DNA of 64,000 nt, taken from NCBI RefSeq assembly GCF_018866305.1, contig NZ_CP076456.1, forward strand, positions 3,658,001 through 3,722,000. The letters are read 5' to 3'. Each line of letters starts with the position of its first letter. The stretch's first letter is position 1. This stretch comes from Arthrobacter sunyaminii (lineage in GTDB: Bacteria > Actinomycetota > Actinomycetes > Actinomycetales > Micrococcaceae). The notes beneath the pieces are model-generated. The model had not been told where the DNA came from. It saw only the letters and a list, made by a program, of their open reading frames with translations, and made no database searches. The position numbers and the translations under genes were made by a program. Of the stretch, positions 5,867 to 37,613 are shown one piece after another.

Positions 5867-5879
5867 CAATGCCGCTGCG

Positions 5880-6246
5880 TGGAGATGGGGGGAATCGAAC
5901 CCCCGTCCGATGTTGTATTGCCAGGGCTTCTCCGGGCGCAGTATGCGTCGGATTTTCTCGGCCCCAGCCATCCTGCAAACAAGTGGCTGATCCGGGCCCA
6001 GCCGTCCAAAAGTCCCGAACACCCAGACGGCGGGAGTGTTCAGCAGTGGCCCTCTAAACGACGCCAGGATCCGGAGCGAGAGCGGCTCCGGGCTGACGGA
6101 CTACTCCGGCTGCTTAGGCAGCGAGAGCGAAGTCAGTGCGCATAGGTTTGGCACTTATTTTTTTGCAGAGAGCGTTTACGAGATAACTCTGCGTTCTCGG
6201 CCCGCTTCCCCTGACTCAACAGACATCGTCGAAACCGATCATCCCC
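5880..6246 (-). ncRNA. ssrA: Transfer-messenger RNA (tmRNA)
   Basis: On the minus strand the 5' end reads GGGGATGATCGGTTTCGACG (from 6246) and the 3' end closes with the T-arm GGGGGTTCGATTCCCCCC and acceptor CATCTCCA at 5880. The terminal GGGGATG and CATCTCC pair as the tRNA-like acceptor stem. CCA is not encoded (CGC follows). The tag frame runs from about 6152 to the TAA at 6114-6116 and reads AKPMRTDFALAA, with the ALAA end recognised by proteases. tmRNA with SmpB rescues stalled ribosomes. The tag start codon (GCC) is inferred from its position after ATAAGT. Confidence 0.95.
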
Positions 6247-29929: not shown

Positions 29930-31567
29930 TCACCCGATCCCGACGTCGCGCCGCCGGAAACCCGTAAAACCCGCCGCGACGAGGACTGCTGCACCCGCCG
30001 TCAGAACCGCCAGCGGGGCAGCCTCCGGATCGGCGCTGGGCACCAGCGCCACATGGGCGAGGGGTGACAGGTCCATGGCCCAATCGGGCAGAGCCAGCAG
30101 CTGTCCCAGAAAGAGCACAATGGCGCTCCACACCACCGGCGCCCACGCCAGTGCAGCGAGCCGGGGAAACAGACCGTAGAGGGCCGCCGCGACGCCGGCG
30201 GACAGGGCGATGGCGGGTAAATACGTCAGCGCAGCAAGGGTCAGCTCGCCCGCCCATCCGCCGTCGCCGGTTCCCGCGGCCACTCCCAAACCTGCGCCGA
30301 GCCCCACGACGGCGGTCATCAGGACGGTCTGCCCGGCCACCACAGCGAGCCATCCCGCAAGCAGCCCGGTCCGGGAACTGCCGGTGGCGAGCAGCTGCTC
30401 GACACGGCCCGCGTCCTCCTCTGCGCGCAGCCGCAGGACGGCCGAGACGCTGAAGATGAGCGGGGCAACGATGACGAAGGAGACGATGGCGGACGCAAAA
30501 CTGGTGGTCACATCCGCCAGGTCCACGGTGATGAAATCCGCCAGCTGCGGAAGATCGGAGAATGATTCCTCCAGGGAATTGGCCAGCGCCCCAAAAGCGG
30601 CCGCGAACAGGAAAGCGGAGACGGTCCAGGTGGCAAAGGAGCCGCGCAGCAGCCGGCCGGCCAGACCCGCCGGGGAAAGTAGGGCGGGCCTGGCGGTTGC
30701 CGGACCGGGCCGGGGCGTCCGCAGCCCGGCGCCAAGGTCCCGCCGCCGGGCCAGCTCCACGGCGAGCACCAGCAGTATTGCCGTGGCCGCAGCCGAGAGG
30801 AGCAGCGGCCACCAGCGCAGGTCCACCCAGAGGCGGGTCTGCTGCGGCCAGGCAAGCGGCGAGAACCAGGACAGCCAGGATCCCTGGTTATTGATGACGT
30901 CGCCGATTCCCCGGATCAGGAAGGCGGCAGCCAGAACCGCCATTGCCGTGCCGGTGGCTCCCCGCGCGTGCTCATTGAGCTGGGCGGCAACCGCGGCAAC
31001 CGCACCGAAAACCATGCCGGTGAGTGCGGTCCCGGCGCCCAGGGCAAGCGAACTGGCAGGGTCCAGGGACGCTGTGCCCGCGAGCGCCGCCACAACGGCC
31101 GCCCCGACCGCGGCATTGGCGACGGCGACCGTGATGATTGCGGCGGCGGCCGGTGCAAAAGGGCCCACCGGCAGGGCACGGAGCATTTCCATCCGGCCGG
31201 ATTCCTCCTCCGCCCTGGTATGCCGCACCACGAGGAGGATGCTCATGATGGCGGCGGCCAGATAGAGGTACAAGGAGAGTTCGTTGGCGACCATCGCGCC
31301 GAACGTGTAATTCTCCAGTCCAAAGGCCGGTCCGGTCATCATGACCGTGGCCGGGTTGTCCATGAGCGATGCCCGGGCCTGCAGTGATTCCGGGGTGGTG
31401 TAGGTCGTCTCGAAAGTTGCCATGGACCCGGCAACGCCTGCGCCGACGGCCAGGGTCCAGACCGGAATAATGATCCGATCCAGCCTCAGGTGCAGCCGCA
31501 GCAATCCGCCGGTGGCAGCCCACGGGTTGCGGAAGGACTGCCGGCGGGCAGTGGGTGGTGCGCTCAT
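29930..31567 (-). CDS. Large ABC-2 exporter permease (about 12 TM)
   Basis: 545 residues, two repeated sets of about six TM helices, as in the actinobacterial polyketide antibiotic or tetronasin exporter permeases. Conserved pieces include LVVRHTRAEEESGRMEMLRA near 115-135 and its second-half counterpart LRLRAEEDAGRVEQLLATGS near 375-395, which are the paired coupling regions. The start overlaps the ATPase stop by 4 bp. Substrate unknown. Confidence 0.9.
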   Translation of the reverse strand: MSAPPTARRQSFRNPWAATGGLLRLHLRLDRIIIPVWTLAVGAGVAGSMATFETTYTTPESLQARASLMDNPATVMMTGPAFGLENYTFGAMVANELSLYLYLAAAIMSILLVVRHTRAEEESGRMEMLRALPVGPFAPAAAAIITVAVANAAVGAAVVAALAGTASLDPASSLALGAGTALTGMVFGAVAAVAAQLNEHARGATGTAMAVLAAAFLIRGIGDVINNQGSWLSWFSPLAWPQQTRLWVDLRWWPLLLSAAATAILLVLAVELARRRDLGAGLRTPRPGPATARPALLSPAGLAGRLLRGSFATWTVSAFLFAAAFGALANSLEESFSDLPQLADFITVDLADVTTSFASAIVSFVIVAPLIFSVSAVLRLRAEEDAGRVEQLLATGSSRTGLLAGWLAVVAGQTVLMTAVVGLGAGLGVAAGTGDGGWAGELTLAALTYLPAIALSAGVAAALYGLFPRLAALAWAPVVWSAIVLFLGQLLALPDWAMDLSPLAHVALVPSADPEAAPLAVLTAGAAVLVAAGFTGFRRRDVGIG

Positions 31568-32499
31568 TGCTCTGCTCCCGCCTCGTCACCGTAGTGGCGC
31601 AGGAACAGCTCCTCCAGTGACGGCGGGGCAATGGTCAGGTTTTGCACGCCGGCTTCGGCCAGCAGTGCCAGGATGCTGTTCACCTGCGCATTGTAGACGT
31701 CGAACCGCAGATATCCGTGCTCCGCACTGAGGTTGTGCACCCCCGGTGCAGCGGCCAGCGCGGCCGGATCCGCCGTCGTCGTCGCCGTGACCGTGGACCG
31801 GGTGAGGTGGCGCAGCTGGGCCAGGGTGCCGGTTTCCACGTCGCGGCCGGAGCGGATGATGGTGACGGTGTCGCACAGCTTTTCCACCTCGGCGAGGATG
31901 TGGCTGGACAGCAGCACGGTACGTCCCTCGCTGCGCAGGTTCCGGATCTCCTCGGTGAACGCGGCCTCCATGAGCGGATCGAGGCCCGAGGTGGGTTCAT
32001 CGAGCAGGAACAGCTCAGCATCTGAGGCGAGCGCGGCGACCAGCGCCACCTTTTGCCGGTTGCCTTTGGAATAGGTGCGCGCCTTCTTGGTGGGGTCCAG
32101 CTCGAAGCGTTCCAGCAGTTCAGCGCGTCGTGCCGCCTGCCGCTTCGCGTTCCGGTCCTTCCCCGCGGTCCGCTTGCCGGCATGTAGCCGGGTGAAGATG
32201 TCAATGGCTTCCCCGCCCGTCAGGTTCGGCCAGAGGGTGGTGTCCCCGGGAACGTAAGCGATCCGGCGGTGGACGGCGACGGCGTCCGCCCAGGGATCCA
32301 TGCCCAGCACCGCGGCGGTTCCGGCGTCAGCGCGCAGCACGCCCAGCAGCACCCGGATGGCGGTGGATTTCCCGGCTCCGTTGGGCCCCAGAAATCCGGC
32401 GACCTGTCCCTCCTCCACCGTGAGCGAGAACCCGTCCAGAGCACGGGCAGAGCCGAAGGCCTTGACGAGGCTGGTCGTTTCGACGGCGGGCTGATTCAT
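31564..32499 (-). CDS. ABC exporter ATPase
   Basis: 311 residues. Walker A is GPNGAGKST (about 38-46), the signature is YSKGNRQKVALVAALA (a Ser-Lys-Gly variant of SGGQ), Walker B is LFLLDEPTSGLDP and the H-loop is SSHILAEVE. The C-terminal DUF4162-like part has VHNLSAEHGYLRFDV. ATG 32497-32499 follows GGAG; an upstream extension is rejected. Together with the 545-residue permease it forms a multidrug or secondary-metabolite exporter. Confidence 0.9.
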   Translation of the reverse strand: MNQPAVETTSLVKAFGSARALDGFSLTVEEGQVAGFLGPNGAGKSTAIRVLLGVLRADAGTAAVLGMDPWADAVAVHRRIAYVPGDTTLWPNLTGGEAIDIFTRLHAGKRTAGKDRNAKRQAARRAELLERFELDPTKKARTYSKGNRQKVALVAALASDAELFLLDEPTSGLDPLMEAAFTEEIRNLRSEGRTVLLSSHILAEVEKLCDTVTIIRSGRDVETGTLAQLRHLTRSTVTATTTADPAALAAAPGVHNLSAEHGYLRFDVYNAQVNSILALLAEAGVQNLTIAPPSLEELFLRHYGDEAGAEQ

Positions 32500-32640
32500 G
32501 GGAGCTCCGGTGGCATCAGACGTGGCCGGGGCCCGTCTTGCGCCCGGTCTGCCCTGGCTGGCAGCAATGTCCACCCAGTCTGCGGCAACTTGCGCCGTTC
32601 GCCAAGGTGTTTTCCATGCTCAGTGCTAACCTGTTGGTAT

Positions 32641-32656
32641 TCGAAGGTGTGTTCTA
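32641..32656 (+). promoter_or_regulatory. Putative LexA (SOS) box before umuDC
   Basis: TCGAAGGTGTGTTCTA matches the actinobacterial/Gram-positive SOS box TCGAAC-N4-GTTCGA at 10 of the 12 defined positions (mismatches at positions 6 and 15). It lies 12 bp before the GTG start of the UmuD-like gene and overlaps the presumed promoter, where LexA would repress. Confidence 0.6.
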
Positions 32657-32668
32657 GGGAGGTGTGCG

Positions 32669-33100
32669 GTGCCCGTGTTTTCCTCCGACTCTGCGCCGCG
32701 TTCCGGCGGCGCGAAGGAACAGCCGGCCACCCGCGGTTCAACGCTTCCGGCCGGGTTCGCATCACCCGCCCAGGACTATTACGACGCCGGCATTGACCTG
32801 AACCGGCACCTGATCCGCGATGCCACGTCCACCTTCATCATGCGGGTTTCCGGCAACGCCATGGACGAAGCCGGCATCAGCGACGGAGACGAGCTGATCG
32901 TGGACCGGTCGCTGACGCCCAAAGACGGGTCGGTGGTTGTTGCCGTTCTGAACGGAGAGCTGATCATCCGGCGGCTGCTGTTGACCGGCCAGGGGATCTT
33001 CCTGCGCGCGGACAGCCCGGACGCAGAAGACATCCGGGTGCCGGATCCCGCGGAACTGTCCGTCTGGGGTGTCGTGACCCGGTGTCTGCACCATGTCTAG
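32669..33100 (+). CDS. umuD: UmuD/LexA-like S24 family protein with both catalytic residues replaced
   Basis: 143 residues, aligning with UmuD over its length: [13 protein letters not shown] around the Ala28-Gly29 cleavage site, [20 protein letters not shown], and [16 protein letters not shown]. In UmuD the catalytic Ser lies in S-G-D-S-M and the Lys in G-E-F-T-V-K. Here those positions are Ala64 (GCC at 32858-32860) and Arg101 (CGG at 32969-32971). The cleavage site is kept but self-cleavage should be lost. GGGAGG precedes the GTG start, and umuC follows 8 bp after the stop. An SOS box lies upstream. Confidence 0.88.
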
Positions 33101-33108
33101 GCCGTCTC

Positions 33109-34395
33109 ATGGCTGAGCAGCACCGCATCGCACTCGTGGACGTAAACAGCTTCTACGTCTCCTGCGAGCGCCTTTTTGACCCGAAGCTGGCCGGCATTCC
33201 CGTGGTGGTGCTCTCCAACAACGACGGCTGCGTGGTGGCCCGCTCCGATGAGGCCAAGGCCCTGGGCATCAAGACGGGTGAGCCGTGGTTCAAGCTGGCC
33301 GAGGCCGCTCCGAAGCTGGGCCTGGTGCAGCGCTCGAGCAACTATGAGCTGTACGGGGACCTGAGCTCGCGCGTGATGCAGCTGCTGGCACGCTTCTCCT
33401 CCGAGCAGGAGATTTACTCCATCGACGAGTGTTTCCTGCACCTGCACGGCACCGATGACGAACTGCGGACCCGGGGCACTGACATCCGGGCTGCCGTGGC
33501 GAAGAACATCGGCCTGCCGGTCTGCGTGGGGATCGGCCCCACCAAAACCCTGGCCAAATTCGCGAACCGGATCGCCAAGCAGAATCCCCACATGGGCGGG
33601 GTCTGCAACCTCGACACCCTGGATCCCGCCGTCGTCGACACCATCATGTCCCGCGTGCCGGTCACCGGCCTGTGGGGCGTGGGCGCGCGCAACGGTGTCC
33701 GGCTGAATGCGCTGGGCATCCACACTGTCGCGGATCTGCGCGCCGCCGATCCCGCCGCGATCCGTGCGAAGTTCTCCGTGGTGCTGCAGCGCACGGTGCT
33801 GGAACTGAACGGCACCGCCTGCATTCCCATGGAAACCGAGTCCGCAGACAAACAGCAGGTCCTCTTTTCACGCAGCTTCGCGACGCCGGTGACTACACAG
33901 GAATCGATGCGCCAGGTCATGAGCCTGTACGCCCAGAAAGCGGCCATTCGACTGGCCAAGGAGGGACAGCTGGCCAGCGTCATGACGGTTTTTGCGTCCA
34001 CGTCGCGCTTCAGCGGCACTGAAGCATCCTCACCTTCGGCTACGGTCCGGCTTCAGCGGCCCACCGCGGATCCCCTGGTGCTCACCCGGGCCGCGATTGA
34101 CGCCATGGATCCCCAGGTGGTGGAGGGTGCCCGGTATGCCAAGGCCGGAATCATGCTCACGGGCCTCTCCCCCGCCGGCGCCGAGCCGGTGTTCGACCTG
34201 TTCGATGCCGGACCGGAGCAGAAGGACATCGGGCCGCTGCTGGCGCAGGTCACCGACAAGTACGGTGCTGCCAGCATTGGCCTGGGACTGGCCGGGATGT
34301 CCACAGCCAAGCCGGACTGGACCATGGCGCGGAACTTCGCTTCCCCGCGCTACACCACCGAGTGGTCTGATCTTCCGGTGGTGAAGGCGGTTTAG
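33109..34395 (+). CDS. umuC: Y-family DNA polymerase V catalytic subunit UmuC
   Basis: 428 residues. Catalytic acidic residues are intact: [17 protein letters not shown] (D11) and [13 protein letters not shown] (the D-E pair near 100). Other landmarks are [36 protein letters not shown] and the DUF4113-like C-terminus ending [20 protein letters not shown]. It performs error-prone translesion synthesis after SOS induction. ATG 33109 lies 8 bp after the umuD stop without a strong ribosome binding site, so it may depend on translation of umuD. Convergent with padR. Confidence 0.94.
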
Positions 34396-37304: not shown

Positions 37305-37310
37305 AAAGGG

Positions 37311-37383
37311 TGGAGCTTAGGGGAATCGAACCCCTGACCTTTTCATTGCGAACGAAACGCTCTACCAACTGAGCTAAAGCCCC
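37311..37383 (-). tRNA. tRNA-Ala (anticodon CGC)
   Basis: Reading the minus strand, acceptor GGGGCTT (from 37383) pairs with AAGCTCC (to 37312). The D arm is GCTCAGTTGGTAGAGC, the anticodon loop TTCGCAA has anticodon CGC for GCG codons, and the T arm is AGGGGTTCGATTCCCCT. CCA is not encoded (CCC follows the discriminator A at 37311). The fold is complete. Confidence 0.95.
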
Positions 37384-37613
37384 AGTCCGGCCAAAGCCGG
37401 ACAGCCCCGAGGGGCATAACCCCGATTCTAGACCCGGGCACAGGTTCATAGGCAAATCGCCGCAGTGTTCTGGCCCCCCGCAGTGCCTCTGGCCGCTCAC
37501 GCTCTGGTTCGGCCTTCCGGCCCAGGGCTATCCTGACAGCCCGGGCCGCAGCATCCCCGGCCGCACTCCCGGCGAAACCGCACCGATCAGCGAACGCAAC
37601 AAGGAGCAGTGCC

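Follow-up and report, generated by a model that had tools for sequence, protein, structure and literature searches.

A UmuD homologue of Arthrobacter sunyaminii that lacks the Ser–Lys dyad may serve its polymerase uncleaved

Can a UmuD protein that has lost the means of cutting itself still serve its polymerase? In Escherichia coli, cleavage of UmuD requires that the N-terminal arm meet Ser60 and Lys97, and this self-cleavage is taught as the step that keeps the error-prone polymerase Pol V off until damage persists. The question is raised by a umuDC operon in a 64,000-nucleotide stretch of the genome of Arthrobacter sunyaminii (RefSeq assembly GCF_018866305.1, contig NZ_CP076456.1, positions 3,658,001 to 3,722,000 of the forward strand), called the window below. 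An initial annotation of this DNA had described a UmuD homologue with both catalytic residues replaced and had offered three alternatives: the protein works uncleaved, another S24 protease cuts it in trans, or it is a permanent inhibitor or chaperone of UmuC. The first of these fits the data best and the other two fit less well. Judging from the sequences compared here, it is probable (roughly 0.6) that the operon encodes a naturally uncleavable UmuD serving UmuC at full length, as a permanent mimic of UmuD′.

The reading frame matches the Pfam family Peptidase_S24 (E = 5e-22), the only domain found. It scores 136.8 bits with the NCBIfam UmuD model NF007621 (cut-off 110) and so possesses the UmuD sequence core; the scores with the HumD model NF051876 (73.6 bits) and the LexA model (55.4 bits) lie below the respective cut-offs of 120 and 110.95. 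In an alignment with the solved structures of UmuD (8gmt, which itself carries Ala at the lysine position) and UmuD′ (1umu), Ser60 corresponds to Ala64 and Lys97 to Arg101. The score, the alignment and the bases confirm both the homology and the two replacements that had been proposed. The AlphaFold model has block means of 84–95 for core residues 51–140, and its best Foldseek match is E. coli UmuD′ (1ay9, E = 3e-8). The host genome, a single contig of 3,914,265 bases, encodes this one UmuD and two S24 proteins in all, the other being LexA. A downstream start that would yield UmuD′ directly was considered and rejected, as the gene has no in-frame ATG, GTG or TTG between codon 3 and Met58. The protein belongs to the UmuD family in its sequence, fold and operon; it is not a UmuD autoprotease, and RecA-stimulated self-cleavage to UmuD′ would not be expected of it in the absence of Ser and Lys.

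Relatives were classified by the residues at positions 64/101 (A/R in the window; S/R, S/K and so on elsewhere), proteins with Arg at position 101 being termed R-type and those with Lys K-type. The 120 nearest proteins listed comprise 79 S/K, 23 S/R and 18 A/R. Among 96 loci read at both residues (L001, L003–L037 and 60 fetched from a longer match list), 55 are S/R, 22 S/K, 18 A/R and one G/R; the 203 proteins read comprise 123 S/K, 55 A/R, 23 S/R, one C/R and one A/A. A named collection, which overlaps in part with the genomes of the first survey, gave 63 S/K, 11 S/R and six A/R among the best 80 of 336 loci; its A/R records include Arthrobacter gandavensis JCM 13316, A. ruber and Arthrobacter sp. 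ATA002, and its S/R records A. koreensis, A. citreus and A. luteolus. These fractions are not frequencies, because the samples were ranked by similarity to the queries and partly hand-picked. Loss of Ser with Lys kept was found in none of the 203 proteins, none of the 96 loci and none of the best 80 of 336 named loci. Replacement of Ser by Ala thus co-varies with that of Lys by Arg, and the expectation that the protein should be uncleavable gains support from this pattern and from the missing dyad. UmuD-like protein P0159 (258 residues) has Ala at both catalytic positions and forms a long branch among K-type rows.

Close relatives do not have the Ser and Lys that would point to a sequencing error: the eight closest genomes of the genus, which include the window's and also named Arthrobacter records, are all A/R, and the next in the genus are S/R. 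Since the A/R pair is shared with seven other genomes, sequencing error was rejected. The gene is present in all 29 genomes of the genus; UmuD matches at E ≤ 1e-15 occur in 171 of 295 genomes of the family and, across the class, in four of 394 genomes, three of these four being from the same family. A search of the open-access literature, outside which subscription journals mostly lie, found no description of dyad-less UmuDs, and no report of Arg replacing the lysine of LexA or UmuD was found in that literature.

The replacement is specific to UmuD. Ser or a charged residue occupies 13 positions with at least 95% constancy among 30 K-type UmuDs; ten of these are kept by the R-type proteins (71–74 of 74 rows each), the three exceptions being both dyad residues and Asp95; Lys is replaced by Arg in 74/74 of these rows and Ser is lost in 19/74. 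Outside the Ser and charged positions that this test covered, Thr99 and Asn116, invariant across 31 K-type rows, are kept in only 18 and seven of the 74 R-type rows, and Tyr119 in 25. A general drift from Lys to Arg, as might occur in a GC-rich genome, was rejected as an explanation, because two controls keep their lysines. The three invariant lysines of UmuC are Lys in all 70 R-type rows. LexA, sought in 32 genomes and found in all 32, yielded 30 loci, 29 of which retain Ser, Lys and the A-A-G site (23 by pattern, six by eye; the remaining one was not extracted); one of these 30 genomes (G199) has a UmuD whose state was not read.

Selection and conservation argue against decay of the operon. 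In the eight A/R genomes of the genus, the UmuD core has a ratio of nonsynonymous to synonymous polymorphism (pN/pS) of 0.073, compared with 0.111 in UmuC and 0.43 in the arm; arm values across the R-type groups are 0.43–0.84. The catalytic acids of UmuC are Asp6, Asp101 and Glu102 in E. coli numbering. Asp6 is present in all 69 R-type rows that reach this position (one row has no N-terminus) and Asp101 with Glu102 in 70/70; the 70 omit four of the 74 R-type loci, in which no full UmuC was available for pairing. The SOS-type box and intact umuC of the initial annotation were found again, with the acids in place. UmuC matches at E ≤ 1e-50 occur in 42 of 43 genomes searched, mostly R-type ones; the search gave no UmuC match in G227, and a partial UmuC alone is present in G137 (with a stop) and G215. 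Short loci had suggested that some R-type umuD genes are orphans; this was rejected for the ten genomes with a displaced umuC, as it lies 3–24 kb downstream on the same strand in 10/10 of them, both genes being kept. The displaced loci (L107–L115 and L117) belong to nine genomes of genus g25 and one of g23. The C-terminus of UmuC has been described as the UmuD′-binding site; UmuC residues 423–424 (window positions 34375–34380) are Pro in 70/70 and Val in 67/70 R-type rows and variable in 19 K-type rows. The features of the operon are listed in Table 1.

Table 1. Features of the umuDC operon of the window, in window coordinates
Feature	Position	Strand	Remarks
SOS-type (LexA) box TCGAAGGTGTGTTCTA	32641..32656	+	12 bases before the umuD start codon; pattern match
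Likely ribosome-binding site GGGAGGTG	32657..32664	+	read directly from the bases
umuD	32669..33100	+	143 residues, GTG start; S24 fold that lacks the Ser–Lys dyad
N-terminal arm, 28 residues	32669..32752	+	hydrophilic; low-confidence in the structure model
Ala28-Gly29 codons, former cleavage position	32750..32755	+	bases read
Ala64, codon GCC, replaces nucleophile Ser60	32858..32860	+	alignment and bases read
Arg101, codon CGG, replaces general base Lys97	32969..32971	+	alignment and bases read
umuC	33109..34395	+	428-residue Y-family polymerase; IMS, IMS_C and DUF4113 domains; starts 8 bases past the umuD stop
UmuC catalytic Asp11 (E. coli Asp6)	33139..33141	+	alignment and bases read
UmuC catalytic Asp106-Glu107 (E. 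coli Asp101-Glu102)	33424..33429	+	alignment and bases read

A tree of 90 UmuC proteins requires three K/R changes and five S/A changes. A careful tree of 66 rows, from which 24 of the 90 were removed as near-copies or long branches, requires two and five, respectively, and on it the A/R label requires five at both the 5% and the 95% bootstrap limits. The changes are read as losses because the Ser–Lys dyad is the rule across the S24 family. Approximately unbiased (AU) tests reject a single A/R clade (p-AU = 9e-5), a single R clade (p-AU = 0.014) and a grouping that unites the A/R rows of the window's genus and of genus g32 (p-AU = 0.009). These values are somewhat generous, because the groups were chosen with the first tree already in view. 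The UmuC trees suggest that the dyad was lost several times while the rest of the protein was kept.

The former cleavage site has fared differently. The P1 residue (Ala28 in the window) is Ala in 30/30 K-type loci and in 121/123 S/K proteins, the others being Cys and Val. In the 18 A/R loci it is Ala in eight, Ser in six, His in three and Met in one; in the 55 S/R loci it is Ser in 18, Ala in 12, Thr in 12, Arg in nine, Met in three and a gap in one; in the single G/R locus it is Ile. Over the 12 residues that precede G29, hydropathy averages +1.11 in K-type, −0.38 in A/R and −0.57 in S/R loci, and +1.94, −0.08 and −0.56 in S/K, A/R and S/R proteins, respectively. On the careful tree, arms below +0.3 belong to 47 of 50 R-type and none of 16 K-type rows, a comparison that contains just two independent pairs. 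Across the R-type relatives, the alignments indicate that the site is not conserved as a substrate, since P1 varies and the arm is no longer hydrophobic; the claim that the cleavage site is retained is right for the letters Ala-Gly in the window's clade and does not extend to these relatives. The residues that follow are conserved: G29 is kept in 299/299 sequences and S32 and P33 in 298, and in the window protein the UmuD′ part opens with G29-F-A-S-P, which follows the conserved G29-F-x-S-P. As noticed by eye, many R-type arms that are otherwise unlike begin with V/M-F-S/G (R-type rows of L001–L030, genera g8, g18, g23 and g25); this start could be a short recognition motif. An almost armless R-type protein, L090, was considered as a ready-made UmuD′ and was not used, its start being insecure and its upstream region having no SOS-type box (best score 8/12).

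The box upstream of umuD is the sole match in the window to an SOS-type pattern built from the box seen in the window's genus, with one mismatch allowed and 0.02 matches expected by chance. The host's own lexA, whose product keeps Ser, Lys and the A-G site, is preceded by a box of this pattern, and the box is present in 8/8 A/R loci of the genus. Across the whole genome the pattern shows no enrichment (four matches vs three for a reversed control), so that support is drawn from the individual lexA and umuD sites alone; the two remaining matches have no neighbouring gene linkable to repair. On these sites, the umuD promoter is predicted to be LexA-controlled. No SOS-type box was found in the 295–500 upstream bases of eight A/R loci of two other genera (L033, L034, L045, L046 and L047 of g32; L081, L086 and L095 of g4), where the best scores are 7–9 of 12 positions and shuffles of a shorter stretch reach about 7. 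LexA control may thus have been lost as well in these A/R loci. We consider it an even bet that at least two Micrococcaceae lineages dropped the proteolytic switch of Pol V by the same Lys-to-Arg step, turning UmuD into a constitutive UmuD′ with a tail repurposed or idle, and that Pol V of g32 and g4 may have shed both known gates.

The likely path to a permanent UmuD′ mimic would begin with the Lys-to-Arg replacement, which would have disabled cleavage first and left Ser, the P1 residue and the arm free to change. The arm would then stay undocked, in an ‘arms up’ state, and the (UmuD)2–UmuC complex would be competent once made. As G-F-x-S-P outlives cleavage, its conservation probably has a different cause, most likely contact with UmuC, which may need that start whether or not the bond before it is cut. 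Pol V would be gated by LexA at the level of transcription and by RecA, without the self-cleavage delay of E. coli. According to the accessible text of PMC5342242, a comparable state was engineered in E. coli UmuD 3A, a non-cleavable protein with full-length arms that are off the globular domain, considered a UmuD′ mimic. The R-type proteins, in which one or both dyad residues are missing and the arm is changed, fit this precedent better than that of a dyad mutant with a normal arm, so the mimic is favoured. The same text reports low but detectable mutagenesis with uncleaved UmuD 18 and is inconsistent on ultraviolet (UV) resistance, which the abstract affirms and a section heading denies, while the discussion has survival promoted.

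Several observations weigh against a permanent UmuD′ mimic or against its repeated origin. As far as the accessible text of PMC3901139 goes, full-length E. coli UmuD S60A greatly reduces UV mutagenesis and increases UV sensitivity; dyad loss alone does not activate, which makes the changed arm the basis of the argument. P1 is still Ala in eight of the 18 A/R loci, which are all eight of the window's clade, and in 12 of 55 S/R loci; in the window's clade, uncleavability is consequently argued from the arm and the dyad. Arm pN/pS in six K-type loci is 0.69; rapid change of the arm is hence common to both types, and what sets the R-type arm apart is its composition only. When R is tested against arm or P1 by independent pairs, two pairs are available, too few for significance. 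In AlphaFold monomers of the window UmuD and an S/K relative, the predicted local distance difference test score (pLDDT) of the arm is below 50 in both, and their docking is indistinguishable. The UmuD tree, poorly resolved with 109 columns, has starred branches that force only two A/R changes, and recombination between umuD and umuC, or of umuD from one operon to another, could possibly mimic separate origins.

These points leave room for other explanations. An uncleavable UmuD might be a permanent inhibitor or checkpoint factor, holding UmuC in an inactive state and delaying replication once DNA is damaged, as in the early SOS response of E. coli. The strong effect of S60A on UV mutagenesis would agree with this, as would the checkpoint action of UmuD with UmuC given in the accessible text of PMC3901139, but UmuC, with Asp101 and Glu102 constant in the R-type rows, is subject to purifying selection, whereas decay would be expected of a polymerase held back permanently; inhibition is therefore unlikely. 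The same low probability is given to cleavage in trans, in which LexA or an unrelated protease would remove the arm after damage and leave the usual UmuD′. Such cleavage would suit the window's clade, where P1 Ala is kept (8/8) and STLPAG occurs in seven of eight loci, and those genomes in which an R copy is accompanied by an S/K one; yet the host has one UmuD, with LexA as its only other S24 protein, and across the R-type loci P1 varies and the hydrophobicity of the arm is lost. Genome G022, with a chromosomal S/R umuDC (L028) and an S/K umuDC (L031) on a 400-kb contig, offers a natural pair for studying trans cleavage.

It is very improbable that the arm has become a new regulatory tail, its V/M-F-S/G start and linker being bound by a degradation factor, the clamp or RecA in place of the cleavage switch. 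The recurrence of this start speaks for such a tail, and the E. coli arm holds protease recognition signals (accessible text of PMC5342242), but the motif, recognised by eye, is missing from genera g4 and g21 and cannot be made out clearly in g32, and the arm values of pN/pS in the R groups denote weak constraint. That the operon is a non-functional or decaying relic whose catalytic residues drifted is extremely improbable: L056 (Gly64) adjoins an interrupted umuC and the umuC of G137 is broken, but strong purifying selection on the UmuD core (pN/pS of 0.07) and UmuC, the intact catalytic acids of umuC, the presence of the gene throughout the genus and that of the SOS-type box in its A/R loci argue against decay.

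If full-length service of UmuC as a permanent UmuD′ mimic is the right reading, these Pol V operons without self-cleavage would show that the checkpoint is dispensable and would provide naturally occurring systems in which to study the purpose of the arm and of the delay. The database label ‘autoproteolytic subunit’, which several such proteins carry, would be wrong for them.

Elsewhere in the window, an ABC transporter pair lies just upstream of umuD on the reverse strand (29930–32574); its ATPase has a DrrA-type C-terminus, and the membrane partner falls below Pfam cut-offs. The same strand carries a tmRNA gene (5879–6246) and a tRNA-Ala(cgc) gene (37308–37384).

Among known systems, E. coli UmuD/UmuD′ shares with the window protein the S24 fold, the UmuD′ core with its G-F-x-S-P start, the operon with umuC and an SOS-type box; unlike it, the window UmuD has no Ser–Lys dyad and a hydrophilic arm, and P1 is not conserved in its R-type relatives. 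With E. coli UmuD 3A (T14A L17A F18A) it has full length in common and, as we infer, non-cleavage and an unbound arm; UmuD 3A is engineered and altered in the arm alone, whereas here the loss is natural, appears repeated and includes the dyad. The phage UmuD′-like protein HumD has a related S24 core. HumD lacks an arm, whereas the window UmuD has one and scores below the HumD family cut-off. S/K UmuDs of actinobacterial plasmids (L099–L106) are 52–68% identical in the matched part and also form an operon with umuC, but all eight read, picked from 30 listed, carry Ser, Lys and P1 Ala. The YqjX/YolD small subunits of Gram-positive Y-family polymerases are likewise polymerase subunits, but of a different family; the accessible text of PMC12926913 presents them as a UmuD analogue and places their N-terminal arm, in a model, within the cleft of the polymerase.
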